Assembly (NCBI GenBank): GCA_015956445.1
Contig: WIUZ02000019.1
Location: forward strand, 310,001 to 374,000
DNA: 64,000 bases
Source of the DNA: Thelephora terrestris
Taxonomy: Eukaryota > Basidiomycota > Agaricomycetes > Thelephorales > Thelephoraceae
Direction: 5' to 3'
The notes beneath the pieces were generated by a model that saw only the letters and a program-made list of their open reading frames with translations, made no database searches and was not told where the DNA came from. This document shows, piece by piece, positions 248 to 37,303 of this stretch. Positions within the stretch are counted from its first letter, which is position 1, and each line of letters begins with the position of its first letter. Both the position numbers and the translations under genes were made by a program.

Positions 248-1712
248 ATGGCCGGACGTCCTGAACCTCAACTATGTTGCGTTGGCCGAGCCCTGCAGAA
301 GCTCGGATGCTTGCCAAAAAGGTCCACCACGAATACTCAGGTCTATTATCCAATAAGTGAGAACTCTCATCGCCTTCTCATCATACCTCCTCTGACCCTT
401 CGTAGCCATACAACCTATCGACAACGGTCCTGGTTACGGCTATAATGACGATATCAAGTTTGAGCCCGGCCCACAGTTTCCGCTTCCGCGGCCAGACCGA
501 CTTGTGCCGCAAGTGAGATCATATGCTGCGATACATCAACAGATCCCCAAGACCCCCAAGAAGACCCCAATTGTCCAAACGGTTCCACTGAGCACACAAT
601 CGAAACACATGCAATTCCCCAGAAGTCCCAAGAAGACTCCTGTTGCTCAAACGGTCCCACTGATCACACTGCCATCCACATACCACCAGAGACCCCTGCA
701 GGTCCCCTTTGCCCAAACCGCTCTGCTGAGCACACTGCCGTTACCAGGTACGCTCGTCGTTTCCATAGCAAACTAAACCCTGAATCGTCCGCCCTTGTCG
801 GTAGTCAACGCACTTCCAGACTGCACCCCAGCGACAACTCGTACCGCCTTAAACGTAGACCCCCCTCCAGCTCATCCCATTGTACAAATTACTCAGACCC
901 CTTACTTGACCCCGCACTCCGCCATTCCGCAACTTCCGGACCAAAGCACAATCCCCGATTCGATCCTACAAGGTTTGGGGAGCATCACACCTACTCAATA
1001 TGTTTGGAATACACCGCACGGCGCTCTGACATATAACCCCACACCTTCATCTGCACGCTCCATGCCCAATGCGTTGGCAAGCCTTAGTCCACGTTCTGCC
1101 ACTATCTTCGGTTTGGGGGACGGGGATGGCAACCCCACGAGTCCAGGCCTCATTCCAAGCCCTATCTCATCAGATGCGTCTGGCCTCTTTGATCGATCCC
1201 TCGACGGTCGCCTGTTGGGGATTGCACTCAATCCATTGCTTACGACGGCGATCGAGTGGAATGTCTCCCATCCTGTCGACAGGGTGAGGCATGCATTAGA
1301 CGATGCGGCCTTCATCGCGAACGTATCCGAGCCGGCCACGAACCCTCCAATAAGTACGTTGTGCGTCGAACTTCACTTCTTCGGCTATTCGGGCGTAACC
1401 TGGAACTGGGATCCAATTACCATACGAAAACGTCGCCCGGTTCAGATAACGGACCTCTTCCATGCGATTTACGACTACTTCCAGACACCACTCACGCGCG
1501 GCGAGTACGATATCATCAAGTCACACGGAAAGGCCAACGCGAAGATTGTGAGGGACTCATGGCGCGAACGTGTTGCTTCGCAGGCGGTGGGAGCGGCTCA
1601 AACCGCGGTCTACCATGGCGGCCTCAGGCGCGTGGATTGTTTAGGATCATCAAAACACTTTGTCAGATTGTGGGTCGATGAGTCTCAGCTGAAGCTCGGC
1701 TTGCGCGCATGA
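248..1712 (+). CDS. DUF6699 domain protein with Pro/Thr/Ser-rich N-terminus
   Basis: Three exons (248-356, 406-747, 805-1712) join in frame to about 452 residues; both introns have GT..AG ends. The last 150 or so residues look like the basidiomycete DUF6699 domain: an 'IEWNVSHP' strand, then 'EPATNPPISTL', a 'WNWDPITI' strand and 'ITDLFHAIYDYFQTPLT' with 'GEYD'. No biochemical role is known for this domain. The N-terminal 250 residues are low complexity and rich in Pro, Thr and Ser, with three degenerate repeats around 'TPKKTP..QTVPL' in exon 2. Exon 3 is well supported. The start at 248 is the only ATG that joins cleanly to exon 2 but remains tentative. It converges on the zinc-finger gene that ends at 1981. 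Confidence 0.68.
541..745 (+). repeat. three imperfect tandem repeats in coding sequence
   Basis: Units of roughly 70 bases each contain a core close to 'caaacggtcccactgancac' (near 575-597, 648-670 and 713-737). The encoded repeats read TPKKTPIVQTVPLST, SPKKTPVAQTVPLIT and a diverged PFAQTALLST. They lie in the disordered N-terminus of the DUF6699 protein and probably arose by local duplication. Confidence 0.6.
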
Positions 1713-1980: not shown

Positions 1981-3338
1981 CTATACGACGACTCCGTGGG
2001 TTGTTGCGAAGTGCTGTAAGAGATTATGCGTCACACGATATGAGAGTTGGTTTGGCATTCGTGCGCTCACCAGTTTCCAGAGAAACACACTGGGGAATAT
2101 GGGTAGGCCACGACAATACCCACATGTCAAACAGTGGGCGAATTTAGTATGCTGTGTGGCGGTTGATTCAGAGTAAATCACACAGACAGCTTGTGATTGA
2201 AAGAGCTACCATGATCAGTAGCTCTGCGCTCAGAAAATTCGCCGGACATAGACCGCAGCTGAAAGTCTCCGGGAGACTATGGGCGGGTCGATTTGCACTA
2301 CTCTCTGGAGGAGGTTGCCTTTCATCCTCGGAGGACGACTGTCCGTCATCATCAGAAGACAAATCCTCTTCGTCTTCGGATGACAGATGCCCTTCGTCCT
2401 AAGAGGTTTTAGTTCGCACGGTCAGACGCCGCGGAAATGGAAAGGCACACATCAGACAGTTCCGCCAAGGGACCATGCGGAATTGGTTCTTCCCAGTGTT
2501 GTTCTTCATTATTGTTGTCGGCAGTGTTTGCATACGTCCAGCGAAGTTTCCTCATAGCCTTACGGCGGCGTTTCACGTTGTGCACGTCCCTCAAGTGCTT
2601 TGATGGTGGTTAGGCGAAAGCTTGAGAAGGATATTCAACGAAGCTCACTCTCCACATCATCTTACTGTTCATCACAACTCCTGAACACCCCGAGCACTGG
2701 AAGAGGGAAGGTAAGAACGTTCCAGTCTCCTTACGTCTGGGGTACGGATTGCAAACCTATCCCGAATCGGCACGGTAAGCCCAAGAAACCCAAGTTTGTT
2801 CAGAACCCACCTGGTAAATGATAGGGTGCACTCTTCTTAGGTGCTTAATATTCCATTCAGTAGCCTGACGCCGGCGTATAACACAAGCCACGCCACCTTA
2901 TTGAGGTCTTTTTCCTAAATCCCGCGGGACACCATCGGCAGGTGTGCCCCACTCGGCCCTGAAAATCCGGTTCATCAATGCTGTAACACAATCTCCCGTA
3001 GGAACTTGCGTCGAACCTTCGATATCGTTGCAGGCCTCCCCGCCTTTGGAGGGACGGAGACTTGAGGTGTCCTGAGAGCGACTTCCCTGGAGTTGTGGCG
3101 GACGTGTGCGGATGGGTTAGGCTGCGCACGCTGAGAAGACGAGGGGTGAGCTGCGCCATTACTACCGGTAGGTGCAGTCAAAGAGTGTTTTCTCGCGTGC
3201 TAAGTAAGAGCCAACAAAACCTGATCAGCAGGAAAGCAGACGATTGCTTAGTATGACACCTACGTTCTGAGCCGCGACCGGGTCAGCGTACCTCCTGCCA
3301 CATATATTACAATGAATATTTTTCTCTGGTTTGACCAT
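1981..3338 (-). CDS. multi-C2H2 zinc-finger protein, tandem copy A
   Basis: I do not recognise the gene by name, but it has at least four C2H2 fingers spread over many exons. Finger 1 is C-x2-C (near 3300-3316, 'NIHCNICGRRYADPVAAQN'), then an intron, then H-x3-H (near 3184-3199). Next come a linker (about 2975-3150) and a CRWCP segment near 2940. Finger 2 has its Cys pair near 2690 and H-x4-H near 2580 ('HLRDVHNV'). Finger 3 has its Cys pair near 2250 and H-x4-H near 2140. Finger 4 is C-x2-C-x14-H-x4-H and ends 'HFATTHGVVV' followed by a stop at 1981. In each finger the intron lies just before the first His. Start ATG 3338 matches the starts of the other copies. Likely a nucleic-acid-binding protein by family logic; targets unknown. 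The exon chain around the CRWCP segment is uncertain. Confidence 0.55.
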
Positions 3339-3404
3339 TGTAAAAGTGTGGCGGAGGGTTGGCGCTTAGAAATGATAGAAAGCCGAGGAAGGTGGCAGGC
3401 ATGA

Positions 3405-3426
3405 TTCTCAGTCACGGGATATTTTA
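3405..3426 (-). promoter_or_regulatory. conserved upstream box of copy A
   Basis: The + strand text 'gtcacgggatat' lies about 75-85 bases upstream of the copy A start. The same box occurs at similar distance before copies B and C, and in a weaker form before D. A second conserved stretch ('gtgtggcgga.g.t.ggcgctt') directly precedes each start codon. This is a candidate shared promoter or 5' UTR element; the function is inferred from conservation only. Confidence 0.4.
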
Positions 3427-3640
3427 TGGGGACACAAGATGGCGTAATAAGAGTGCAATGCAAGTCCCTGCTGGGGGGGTTAGGGTGACAATTTCCACAG
3501 GGGCATTGCGCTGCCGGTCTTGATCAGGTATCAATTCCATCATTGTCGCTCAGGCACTTCTATTCGTACATCTCGGAAGGACAAAGATCTTGAGTATCAG
3601 TGTTCCAATAGAAGTAGATACCAAGCTAGTAGCTCTCGGC

Positions 3641-4847
3641 CTATGCAAGGAGCCCGTGGACCGTCACGCGGTGCTGTAGAGGAAGTTCCCGCGTCACGCG
3701 AGGACAGAGGCAGACTTGACACTGATGCGCTCACCTCTCGCCAGAGCCACACACTGGAGAACGGAGGAAGGTTTCGACAATGTACACACCTCCAGTAGTG
3801 AACAAATCTTGTGTGCTGAACGAGGGTGAGCTAGGAGGGAAACCGGCATATTGCTTGTGGAGGAGGTAATCACCATCTTCAACGTTTCTGCAGCTTGAAA
3901 GATCTCCGGACAAAAGTCGCAGCTGAAGGATTGTTGGCGATCACCGGCCGGCTCTTCTCCCTTAGCCCCAAGGGTATCACCATCGTCCTAAGAGATTTTA
4001 ATTGGTGTGCTTAGACACGGAAATGAAGGCATACATCCCACCATTCTACCGGAGAACCACCAAGAAAAGGTTGGTCCTTGCAGACTTTCGTGCAGAGTCT
4101 TCTCATAGCACTCCGGCGATGTCTCACGCCGTGCGCGTTCTGTAGGTGCTTCGGCAGCGTTGAGCAGAAACGTGAGTGGGAGATCAAGTAGAGCCAACAT
4201 TCCACATGTTTTCCCAACGCATCGCAGCTGGACATTTCGAGCACTGGGCGACGAAGGGTGAGGAAATTCTAGTCCGCCCACATTAAAGTGATAATCGCAG
4301 ACCTATCACGAATCAGCATAAGAAATGCAGCTTTGTTTAGAAATTACCTTGTAAATTGTCCGGTGGATTTTTCTATTGTGCTAACAAGAACATTCAGTGG
4401 GTCGTCGGTGCGAGCACAAGCCGCGACACCTTATTGAATTGCGTAAAGGTTTCAAATCTCCCAAGGTGGGGACACCATCGACAATGCATGTTCGTTGGAC
4501 CATTGGGCTTTGGTTGAACCTTTGATGCCGTTGTGCTAGGTTGCCCCACCGCTCTCCGCCCGATATGAGGCTCCTTGACAGGGACGGGTTTGACAGGCTT
4601 CAAGCGCACGGGGTTCGACGGCCTGCGGTGCGCCCTGATAGGGACGGTGCGAACTGAGAGTGAAGGAGAAACCTGATTACGGGTTTGACCAATGTGGGCC
4701 TTCGCGTGCTAAGGGCTCAGATCAACAAATGGGGTCGCGGGAAGGCGAACGGTCGTATGGGGGGACACATACTTTCTGAGCTGCGACGAGGTCTGCGTAC
4801 TTCTTGCCACACACAGCGCAGCGAATATTTCTGTCTTGTTTGACCAT
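3641..4847 (-). CDS. multi-C2H2 zinc-finger protein, tandem copy B
   Basis: Same order of elements as copy A. Finger 1 begins 'MVKQDRNIRCAVCGKKYADL' at 4847, with its His pair after an intron near 4700. A 'CRWCPHLGRF' segment lies near 4470. Finger 2 has Cys pair 'QCSKCP' near 4235 and 'HLQNAHGV' near 4140. Finger 3, 'CDFCPEIFQAAETLKM', lies near 3900-3930, then an intron, then 'HTRFVH'. Finger 4 is 'CVHCRNLPPFSSVWLWRE', then an intron, then 'HRVTVHGLLA' and a stop at 3641. I could not find a fully open path into the finger 2 exon, so this copy may carry a break there or an intron I misplaced. Function unknown. Confidence 0.5.
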
Positions 4848-4923
4848 GATAGAAGTGTGGCGGATGTTTGGCGCTTAGAATCCACGAGCAAACAGATCTC
4901 AGCCAAGGCTTGACGTACAATTC

Positions 4924-4937
4924 CGGTCACGGGATAT
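4924..4937 (-). promoter_or_regulatory. conserved upstream box of copy B
   Basis: The + strand text 'ggtcacgggatat' lies about 80-90 bases upstream of the copy B start at 4847. It matches the boxes of copies A and C exactly over the core. Confidence 0.4.
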
Positions 4938-5125
4938 AGCATAAGTAGCCCGGCATGAATGCAGTTTCTTGGAAACCGAGATAAAGCAGAAAATCTATGA
5001 AAGGCGTTGTTATGGGTTTTCAGGAGTTAATTTCGCCGCAATCGCTCTAGCGCTATTAGTGGTACATCTCGTGGGGGAGGGCAACCCTCCTTCCTTAGAG
5101 TTAAGTCACTACCAAACACGTAGCC

Positions 5126-6538
5126 CTATCGAGCGAGCCCGTGGACCGTAGCGCGATGCTGTAAATGTTTCCACGTCACACAACGCCAGAAGCAGCGTAG
5201 CGTTCATGCACTCACCTCTCGCCACAACGAGATGCTAGAGAACGGAGGTATGCCTCGACAGTACCCACATTTCCAGGAGTGGACATAATTCACGTGCTAT
5301 TCGGGGGTGAGCTATGAGAAATCTGACCTACGGCTCGTGGAATGGTCACCATCACGAAGGTTTTCATGGTTAGAAAACTTTCCGGGCACAGGTCGCAGGC
5401 GAAAGATTGCTGGTGATCCCGAGCGAGTTGTTCCCATCCTTCCCCAAGAGTAGGTTTTTGTTCGTCTCTCTCGTCATCGGAAGACTGGCTCTCTTCGCCT
5501 TCAGATAACGGTTGCAATTCATCCTAGGGAATTACAGCCCGCATGGTCAAACACCGCATAAATGAAAAGGCACACATAAGACGATACCGTTGATTTGGCG
5601 TTCGGAATACTCTGTTTCCGACCGGCGGTATCGTTTGCAGGGCACTTATGGAGCTTCTTCAGGACTCTCTCGCGATGTTTCGCGCCGTGCAAGTCCACCA
5701 TGTGCTTTGGGAATGTTAGGCGGAGACTCGAGTGAGAGATTAAGTATGGCTGACTTTCCACATTTCATCTTTTCCTGGCATCTCGACTTGACACCTCGTG
5801 CACTGGGCGGAAGGGGTGAGAACGCGGTGGTCCCTTCGCATCAGATATATAGTTGCAAACCTATCCGGCATTAGTGCGGTCAGCCCCAGAAGTGAAAGCT
5901 GGTTTAGAAATTACCTTGTAAACGTTCGGGTGGTGTCTTCTTGTATGCTATATAGAGCATTCAGTGGGTCGTTGGTCATTGAGCATGACACAAGCCGCGG
6001 TACCCGTCTGAGGTTTTCCTCGGCTGTAAAATTTTCCAGGTGGGGGCACCATTGACAAAACAACTTCCCTGGACCCTGAAAAGACATCGCATCAGCAACT
6101 GCAACGTCGATCTCTCAAGAGACTTCTTGTCGAACTTTCGACACCGTTTCGGATTTCATCATTGCCACCGGAGAAGCAGCCACCTGGGGTACTTCAGGAG
6201 TGATGTCTTTAAAACTTTCGCTCACATCTTTGGATAGATTGGGAGGCGCGCGTCGTGAGGGTGACAGAGGGTGTTCCGCGTCGGTATCAGCAGTGCTCAC
6301 GGTTAGACTTGCCGTAGCCTGTTGAATTTCTACAGCTCCTGTGACTAAGATGCAGCAATCATGAGGGCACGTAGAGCCTCACCAGGGTGCTTCCGCGCAT
6401 GCTAGGAGCCGTCAGAACCGGGCCGCGAGATAGGAAATGGTTATGGGCACGTACGTTTTGAGCTGCGATGGGGTCTGCATACGTCCTGCCGCATGTAGTG
6501 CAATGGATGTTCCTCTCCTTTTTGACTCGTCTGGCCAT
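5126..6538 (-). CDS. multi-C2H2 zinc-finger protein, tandem copy C
   Basis: This is the clearest copy. Finger 1 starts at 6538 with 'ERNIHCTTCGRTYADPIAAQ', an intron, then 'HARKHPGEAL'. A Pro/Ser-rich linker with 'SPSRRAPPNLS' follows (about 6115-6300), then 'CQWCPHLENF' near 6045. Finger 2 is 'CTRCQVEMPGKDEMWK' near 5795, an intron, then 'HMVDLHGAKHRERVLKKL'. An acidic stretch follows (about 5460-5520). Finger 3 is 'CDLCPESFLTMKTFVM' near 5390, an intron, then 'HVNYVH'. Finger 4 is 'CGYCRGIPPFSSISLWRE', an intron, then 'HRATVHGLAR' and a stop at 5126. Spacings are C-x2-C-x12-H-x3/4-H for fingers 1-3 and x14 for finger 4. The intron in each finger sits directly before the first His. Function unknown. 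Confidence 0.58.
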
Positions 6539-6609
6539 GATGGAAGTGTAGCAGATGCTCGGCGCTTGCGACTCGGGAACGACGGGCCTCACAAGCGCGG
6601 GCTACCTCC

Positions 6610-6622
6610 GGTCACGGGATAT
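6610..6622 (-). promoter_or_regulatory. conserved upstream box of copy C
   Basis: The + strand text 'ggtcacgggatat' lies about 75-85 bases upstream of the copy C start at 6538. Confidence 0.4.
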
Positions 6623-6799
6623 CACCACGGATGGTATGATGATAACCCGGGGCGCAAGCAGGTACCTGGTAGCTAAAGCACTAAACGACAGTGAATGTTT
6701 TCCCGGATACTATTGCATTAGTATCCAAGGATCGGTTCTATTTCAGTTACCCAAACGCTTTCCTTGTTCATTGCGCGAAGCCGTAGAAGGTTTTCCATC

Positions 6800-8025
6800 A
6801 GGAAACGCTTATTCAAGGTGGATAAACGCCGTCTCTCTCGCCTCTAGCCAGAGTGGTCAAGCTTTGTATGGTGATTTGGGGTGAGATCGAAATGAATCCG
6901 GGAGCAGTAAGAAAGGTACAGTTGTAATCACAAATCTTCCGTGGTTAAAAGTAAAGTCGCAGATAATCAATAAAGGACTCCCAAACGGACTGCTGCCCCT
7001 TGCCATCGGGGTAGGGTGGTTGTTCATCTTCGGGGGACGAATGATGTTCGTCTTCTAGGTTTAGGTGCCTTTCATCATCGCTGTATGGCAGGCAGTCTTC
7101 GTCTCCATATCGCAGGCCGTCTTCGTCTTCGTATTGCAGGCTTTCTCCGTAATCGAATGTATACTGCCCCTCGTCCTAGGAAATGTTGGTTCGTGTTCTT
7201 GGATGGCTCAGGAAGCGAAAAGCATACATCAGACGACTCCATCGGCGAATAATCCAGCGCAAGCCGTGACTTGTTTTTGGCGATTTTAGCGCGCTTCTTG
7301 GTGAGTCTGTCCGTGATATTTGAGGGAATATCGCATCCATTAGTCGTGTGCTGTGGTGACATTAGCAAGGGTATGAGCAGGAGGGCAAGCGTAGCCTCCA
7401 CATCTTCAAGTTGCAAGTCGGAATGGCATACCTGTTTTGCATCGGCACGATCAGCGTAGGAAACATAGACATGCTGAGAAGTTACCTTGCGAATCCTCTG
7501 GCGTACTTGTTTATCGTGCTGGGTAAAATACTTGGTAAGTTGTCGGTAACCAAGGCTATTGCAACCCCCAATACAATACCTCCAACGGTTCCGATGTCTT
7601 TCCGGACCTAAATCGAACCTTTGACCTTTTCTTTGATCCTTTGGTCCCTTTAGACTGTGTCACGGGAGGGGCAGCCACCTGACGGATATTGAGAACAATG
7701 TCTCTTGCGCTGGGGCGCATGTGAACAGATGGGTTGGGTGGTGCATGTTGTGAAGAGGATGGAAGCCGAACTGGACAGGGATCACTAGAAAGCAAGGTCC
7801 GACCCTTCGGCTTTGCTGCGGCGGATTGAGGTGCAACCAGCGCGAGGGCCAGCTGAGCCCTAACATGGTGTTTTTTCGCATGCTACGAACTATCAGGGAT
7901 CCGTTTGGAGAAGGTAAACGGTTGTATATCTTGGCACGTACCCTCTTGGCTGCTACGGGGTCGAAGTAGGCCTTGCCACACAGAGTGCAATGGATGTTCC
8001 TCTCTTGCTTGGCTTGTTTGACCAT
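6800..8025 (-). pseudogene. multi-C2H2 zinc-finger paralogue, tandem copy D (decayed 3' half)
   Basis: The 5' half is well kept. It starts at 8025 with 'MVKQAKQERNIHCTLCGKAY', then an intron, then 'HAKKHHVRAQ', and a linker with 'QHAPPNPSVHMRPSARD' like the other copies. The 3' half has diverged. The segment matching finger 2 keeps one His ('HTTNG') but not the second. The segment matching finger 3 reads 'CDFTFNHGRFVIT', without the second Cys. No finger 4 with the conserved 'LWREH' block could be read before about 6800. An acidic, Arg-rich stretch lies near 7040-7230. It may be a pseudogene, or a diverged gene with a shorter finger set. The 3' boundary is a guess. Confidence 0.5.
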
Positions 8026-36681: not shown

Positions 36682-36751
36682 CAGGGCATGACGTCTTTAG
36701 GCAATTCGACATCTCGTATCCGTCGGAGCTCTTTTTCGATTTGTTTGTGAG

Positions 36752-36893
36752 CTTAAACCGAAACCCCGCGAACCAAGGATACTATGCAACGAGAACGCCA
36801 ACGAGCGCAACGCGCGACCGGGAAAAGAACACTACCGAAAGCCAAGAATGTAGATAGCGTGTTGAAGATGGAGATATATAGATGGCACATAAA
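36752..36893. repeat. direct repeat, copy 1 of 2 (about 140 bases)
   Basis: Runs from 'cttaaaccgaaaccccgcg' to 'gatggcacataaa'. Copy 2 lies 412 bases downstream in the same orientation. The copies match over most of their length, with long identical blocks such as 'accgaaagccaagaatgtag' and 'agatggcacataaa'. There is no coding look and no terminal inverted repeat. Located between the seven-helix gene and the 3' end of the Zn2Cys6 gene. Confidence 0.75.
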
Positions 36894-37163
36894 CACCTCG
36901 ACGGTGAACCGAGATTGGCGCGAAATCTGCCGCGCAAAGTCATCGGTCGACTGGTCTCTACACACCCCTCCTTAGATTCAGACTCTCGCTTCACTATCAA
37001 AATCTGTGCAGAATCCGGTTTTCAAGCAGACTCTCCGAACCGAGAGTTGATTACGATCGTTCTCGAGATCGTGCTGTACTGAGGCTAGATATAAAGAGGC
37101 GGCCAACCAAACGACAGCGCGCTGACGAGCTAACGCTCCCATTGTATCGAATAGATATATATG

Positions 37164-37303
37164 CTTGAATCGAAACCCCGCGAATCAATGAAACTATGCA
37201 GCGAGAACGCCGACGAGCGTAAGGCGCGACCGGGAAACGAACATTACCGAAAGCCAAGAATGTAGATGGTGTGTGGGAGATGGAGAGATAGATGGCACAT
37301 AAA
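37164..37303. repeat. direct repeat, copy 2 of 2 (about 140 bases)
   Basis: Matches 36752-36893 with scattered substitutions and a few small gaps. By eye the identity is roughly 80 percent or more. It could be the 3' UTR of a duplicated neighbour, a short dispersed element, or a simple segmental duplication. Confidence 0.75.

Follow-up and report, generated by a model that had tools for sequence, protein, structure and literature searches.

A family of predicted C2H2 zinc-finger genes in Thelephora terrestris whose complete fingers are each divided by an intron

How does a gene come to carry an intron inside each zinc finger that it encodes, and what kind of protein would it make? This question is raised by a locus of Thelephora terrestris in positions 310001-374000 of contig C11 (genome of 40.6 Mb, 60 contigs), a 64-kb stretch that was analysed whole and is called the window below. 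Four paralogues, D, C, B and A, lie head to tail on its minus strand between 8025 and 1981, from the start codon of D at 8025 to the stop codon of A, which ends at 1981, exactly as an earlier note had placed them. Their homology spans exons, introns and about 100 nucleotides (nt) upstream, the pattern of a tandemly duplicated gene family; the earlier description of four tandem minus-strand paralogues is borne out by it. Based on our findings, we propose, with a probability of about 0.62, that these genes belong to a small and fast-evolving family of five-finger C2H2 regulators that would have spread by tandem and segmental duplication, and whose fingers would descend from one intron-split ancestor.

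The models of A to D were built by hand from the sequence with GT-AG splice sites and checked by script, and the comparison of copies supports the predicted gene structure. Copy B (3641..4847, minus strand) has 8 exons (4847-4773, 4708-4430, 4380-4348, 4243-4199, 4148-4035, 3987-3874, 3815-3735, 3673-3641) and encodes 257 amino acids (aa) with five complete C2H2 fingers, F1 to F5; its 7 introns are all phase 0. Its nearest relative, E, lies on contig C13 of the same genome, of which L029 and L032 are pieces; the 8 exons of E (L029 3596-4841) encode five fingers and are separated by the same seven introns as in B, all phase 0. Copy C (5126..6538, minus strand; 10 exons, 291 aa) also encodes five complete fingers, all split before the first His, and adds to the 7 introns of B one of phase 1 and one of phase 0, both in its long F1-F2 linker; the phase-0 linker intron is common to A and C. 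Copy A (1981..3338, minus strand; 9 exons, 280 aa) has F1, F3, F4 and F5 complete and split, with F2 damaged. Copy D (6945..8025, minus strand; 5 exons, 8025-7942, 7882-7580, 7518-7486, 7350-7228 and 7175-6945; 257 aa) holds F1 only, CTLCGKAYFDPVAAKR|HAKKH, split by a 59-nt intron and followed by a linker and an acidic tail in an open frame. Five conserved fingers are therefore present in three copies, B, C and E. The earlier note had counted four, which are F1, F3, F4 and F5; for these, its spacings (x12, x12 or x11, x12, x14) and its intron just 5' of the first His codon are right in A, B and C. What it took for a loose segment, CRWCPHL, is the Cys half of F2, and the His half lies on the following exon in B, C and E. 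The ending 'LWREHR.TVHG' that it gave as common to the copies holds for B and C, not for A (LWKLHFATTHG); E reads LWREHRATAHK. Upstream of the coding sequence, a block around TCCCGTGA about 80-100 nt before each ATG and a leader like GCGCCGAGCATCCGCCACACTTC directly before it are common to A, B, C, D and E with small changes, and may possibly be a common promoter element.

The place of the intron is constant over the readable fingers. In all fingers of B, C and E, in those of A except F2, and in F1 of D, a phase-0 GT-AG intron of 49-64 nt abuts the codon of the first His. In B, on the minus strand, these introns lie at 4709..4772 (F1; same place in A, C, D and E), 4381..4429 (F2; C and E), 4149..4198 (F3; A, C and E), 3816..3873 (F4; A, C and E) and 3674..3734 (F5; A, C and E). 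The fingers of B and C read C-x2-C-x12-H-x3-H for F1 and C-x2-C-x14-H-x4-H for F2 (in C also readable as x3), followed by F3 with x12 in C and x11 in B, F4 with x12 and F5 with x14, all three ending in H-x4-H. Over the copies, x12 is found in F1 of all five, in F4 of A, B, C and E and in F3 of A and C; F3 of B and E has x11, F2 of B, C and E has x14, and F5 has x14 in A, B and C and x13 in E. The C2H2 motif C-x2-4-C-x12-H-x3-5-H is thus found in the family, with F2, F5 and some F3 outside x12. A search pattern for split fingers (C-x2-C-x11..14, then GT..AG of 44-69 nt, then H-x3/4-H) gave 19 rows in the window, equal to 15 distinct fingers and all inside the cluster, and 6 rows in L029, equal to 5 distinct fingers and all in gene E. 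The rest of the window was free of such hits, as were 40 kb of other DNA of the same genome (L030-L033, four 10-kb pieces) and each of 20 first-order Markov windows. With a stricter pattern, 12 of the 15 fingers were recovered in the window and 3 of 5 in E; on our reading, those missed are finger 3, whose preceding residues are on another exon or whose core is shorter, and finger 2 of E, which is without the aromatic core residue. Since each finger is cut at the same codon, a six-frame search of the genome for whole fingers with PF00096, which gave 28 matches, found none on C11.

Profile searches place the proteins in a familiar class. Copy C, the only one for which Pfam cut-offs were compared, scores 34.9 bits against PF13894 (zf-C2H2_4; E=1.7e-8), above the cut-off of 27, and 22.2 bits against PF00096, below the cut-off of 25.2; at E<=1, both profiles are matched by all four of A, B, C and E. 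Among the best 60 of 70 matches in a PDB profile search, most are ordinary C2H2 fingers (top HIC2, E=1.9e-4), and the few others are weak (ribosomal eL19, a ferredoxin-like protein, USP5). Taking these matches together, the family consists of C2H2 proteins, most likely nuclear DNA-binding regulators. The Pfam table for copy C contains no effector domain. As in the classical fingers of PF13894 and PF00096, the fingers here follow C-x2-C-...-H-x3/4-H and have hydrophobic residues at the customary core positions; unlike them, F2 and F5 are longer by one or two residues ahead of the first His, the F4-F5 linker has three residues, and every finger of the complete copies is intron-split. The classical linker consensus is TGEKP, and the linkers here are not TGEKP-like. 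Each finger would fold on zinc and bind DNA. In the alignment, a basic stretch follows F3, which may be a nuclear signal or a DNA contact, and an acidic stretch precedes F4 in A and C and is shortened in B; this stretch, and likewise the acidic tail of D, could serve as an activation region. The tail of D is expanded by a 24-nt repeat of 2.4 copies (window 7084-7141).

The comparisons with other systems made here draw on parts of the cited papers. A survey across 30 basidiomycetes (PMC12295980) reports 1032 C2H2 genes, many with introns and some tandemly duplicated, as here. Its candidates were picked from annotated proteins by PF00096 and a motif with x12, which F1 and F4 of this family fit and the x11, x13 and x14 fingers do not; an intron inside fingers is not mentioned in its abstract, methods or early results. 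The KRAB/SCAN clusters of mammals likewise show tandem growth and loss of domains by decay, with the difference that the zinc-finger domain there lies on one exon and the effector domains on others (PMC2443715), whereas introns cut the fingers here. Vertebrate CTCF has its finger region over seven short exons, in a single gene (PMC2749850); fingers spread over exons are therefore not new as such. Among the titles and abstract beginnings listed in searches of mostly open-access literature, none describes an intron-per-finger layout, which is weak evidence of novelty. What we see is an unusual gene layout within a familiar protein class, with a function that is predicted and, pending evidence of expression, a modest practical importance.

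The family reaches beyond the cluster. The earlier note proposed a small local family growing by tandem duplication; the tandem growth stands, and the fifth copy, E, adds a second locus to it. Protein searches of the genome with C (E<=1) and with B and E (E<=10), in which the best candidates were scored exon by exon and which a diverged copy may escape, led to the cluster and to C13:63.6-64.8 kb. A weak match on C34, obtained with C only (E=0.02), is a 601-aa finger frame that also appears in the PF00096 search. L029 3504-5123 aligns to window 4948-3250 at 69% and L029 5437-7212 to window 1875-19 at about 73%, both blocks in the same order and orientation. Beside E, at L029 about 5040-5290, a fragment matches A and retains only parts of a broken exon 1 and of the last fingers; read by eye, its start codon and first GT donor are gone. 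Because the two alignments are collinear and an A-like relic lies between them, we conclude that a block of B, A and the neighbouring DUF6699 gene was duplicated between C11 and C13, probably once, and that A decayed on C13; A to D most likely arose by tandem duplication. The DUF6699 gene, an open reading frame at 795..1712 on the plus strand (PF20415, E=5.5e-20), flanks the family, and both duplicated copies are among 21 DUF6699 matches in the genome. Exon lengths are 75/279/33/45/114/114/81/33 in B and 75/282/33/45/114/114/78/84 in E; all 3 differences are multiples of 3, as against only one of the 4 non-zero differences in intron length. In trees of the copies, B and E group with support of 100 (whole locus), 100 (codons) and 90 (exon-1 region), and the placement of A, C and D has support of only 52-73. 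Collections of prokaryote and viral sequences gave 125 and 71 pattern stretches, none confirmed by tblastn; the former is without fungi and the latter is not meant for them, so that both are silent on fungal relatives. Four of the 21 DUF6699 matches lie within about 13 kb on C19 (9765-22875). Directly upstream of E (L032 7834-10000 and L029 1-3235), a unit of about 2.7 kb is repeated in tandem at 87-91% identity.

For the growth of the finger array, we suggest that one ancestral finger was split by an intron and that an exon unit of 'His half + linker + Cys half', bounded by phase 0 at either end, was duplicated within the gene, presumably ahead of the duplications that gave the gene copies. 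Should the shared intron be ancestral in this way, the gene records the growth of a finger array by exon duplication with the exon edges inside the domain. Some observations weigh against our main proposal of a five-finger regulator family: finger 2 of A is damaged, D is without four fingers, the introns of B and E are 72% identical (303/419 aligned bases) and the exons hardly more at 74%, and the fingers resemble each other too weakly to prove exon duplication.

The first three of these observations, together with the fragment beside E, would also fit a decaying family of recently or weakly functional genes turning into pseudogenes, in which B, C and E are merely the best preserved; we hold this possible, though rather unlikely. 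Finger 2 of A has 10 nt fewer than that of B, its exon 3 ends in phase 2, and the model keeps frame only via an acceptor 8 nt downstream, at the cost of the first His of F2. With D and the relic on C13, one genome shows several stages side by side, from complete copies through one with a damaged finger and one without four fingers to a relic. Yet no splice site is missing in B, C and E, which are complete. The frame of D, 257 codons, was open in 1 of 20000 Markov sequences of equal length and composition, an optimistic figure because the splice sites of D were picked with the frame in view. The ratio of nonsynonymous to synonymous substitution rates (dN/dS), by maximum likelihood, is 0.473 for B/E, 0.521 for B/C, 0.519 for A/C, 0.470 for A/B and 0.455 for C/E; these are five of the ten pairs, with A/E and four D pairs outside, and a likelihood-ratio test against 1 places each of them lower (p=7.5e-5 to 5.5e-4), including the three comparisons among A, B and C that the earlier note had proposed as a check. 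By the Nei-Gojobori (NG86) method, the six pairs among A, B, C and E give 0.32-0.47, and the four D pairs are saturated, so that D is without a value. Over the 254 codons compared between B and E, the third position differs in 91, the first in 60 and the second in 68 (third-position excess, p=0.003). The zinc ligands stand out further: of the 20 ligand columns, 18 do not vary among A, B, C and E, as compared with 49 of 233 ungapped columns (hypergeometric p=5e-12), and 19 do not vary among B, C and E, as compared with 72 of 249 (p=1.3e-10). If the last His of F2 is moved to the next column, which is invariant in alignment A3, these counts become 19/20 and 20/20. Such conservation of the ligands among relatives is that of C2H2 proteins. 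Taken together, the predicted protein is under real but weak purifying constraint, clearest at the zinc ligands, and this constraint must be called modest because the introns of B and E are almost as alike as the exons.

Another explanation, which we regard as unlikely, is that the introns were gained independently at one preferred insertion site per finger and not inherited with a duplicated exon. It is favored by the small likeness of the fingers beyond the motif: of 10 finger pairings set against permuted columns, F2/F4 (24/2000) and F1/F2 (34/2000, both uncorrected) stand apart, and the other 8 are not clearly above. We therefore rejected finger-finger similarity as proof of exon duplication, and with resemblance this weak the argument for it rests on the shared place of the intron. 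Papers on stwintrons also report sequence-similar introns entering new places in fungi, as far as the parts drawn on here go. Independent gain would, however, need five hits on the same codon boundary and in the same phase; a single ancestral split finger, multiplied as an exon unit, seems to us the likelier course. Whole fingers were found at eight further C2H2 loci of this genome (the top 8 of the 28 PF00096 matches, two pairs of which overlap), and none of five distinct split candidates, several of them probably spurious, has its junction before the first His; this control is biased, because the loci were found by their whole fingers.

A bolder form of the ancestral exon unit can be imagined, a cassette array offset by half a finger. 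Each exon unit would join a His half to the next Cys half, the part with most DNA-contact residues, and splicing or intron recombination could then remove, duplicate or exchange fingers while keeping them whole. We consider this improbable. If it were true, the family would serve the fungus as a way to alter DNA recognition rapidly, and D and A would be by-products of this.

We give still less credence to regulated skipping of the exon or exons between finger introns, which would yield four-finger proteins with one chimaeric finger. The earlier note had raised half-finger exon skipping as a way to vary the protein, and the geometry of phase and frame does permit it. All internal exons of B and E are multiples of three in phase 0, and among the skips of one to three neighbouring internal exons shown, every one keeps the frame. 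Skipping exon 2, exons 3-4, exons 5-6 or exon 7 would leave four whole fingers, one of them a hybrid of one Cys half and the His half of a later finger; exons 2 and 7 are the only ones whose loss alone has this effect, and other single skips leave an orphan half finger. There are precedents for exon choice setting finger number: isoforms of IKAROS (IKZF1) differ in it by splicing (PMC12896614), and zas1 of Schizosaccharomyces pombe has two or three fingers by splicing (as cited in PMC5034255), documented cases as opposed to geometry alone here. However, C has one phase-1 and A one phase-2 intron, which make some skips frame-breaking (in C, at the phase-1 intron). We rate this reading low because, in coding regions of the mushroom-forming Schizophyllum commune, only about 1% of splicing events are exon skips (PMC5034255); the transcripts are probably spliced constitutively.

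That we read split fingers by chance in non-coding sequence, as the score of C below the PF00096 cut-off and the missing C11 match of the six-frame search might suggest, is refuted by the 15 distinct fingers against 0 in each of 20 random windows, by copy E of the same structure and by the codon-position bias between B and E.

One further intron stands out by being about twice as long as the others. The intron between F2 and F3 lies at 4244..4347 in B (minus strand), 5914-5803 in C, 2810-2697 in A, 7485-7351 in D and L029 4090-4192 in E, and measures 103-135 nt in all five copies as compared with 44-64 nt for all other introns of the five models. Near its middle, an AG|GT occurs in every copy and forms the sole run of four invariant columns inside that intron. 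The second half is 60, 59, 58 and 58 nt long in A, B, C and E, and its reading frame is not conserved. This intron has the look of two introns set back to back around an exon of zero length, and may be a candidate stwintron.

Apart from the family, the window contains genes with matches to RGS/DEP, ribosomal protein L3 and DUF6699, and a Sec63 match below its cut-off, with many short introns. A direct repeat of 143 nt with 87% identity is present at window 36751-36893 and 37163-37303.

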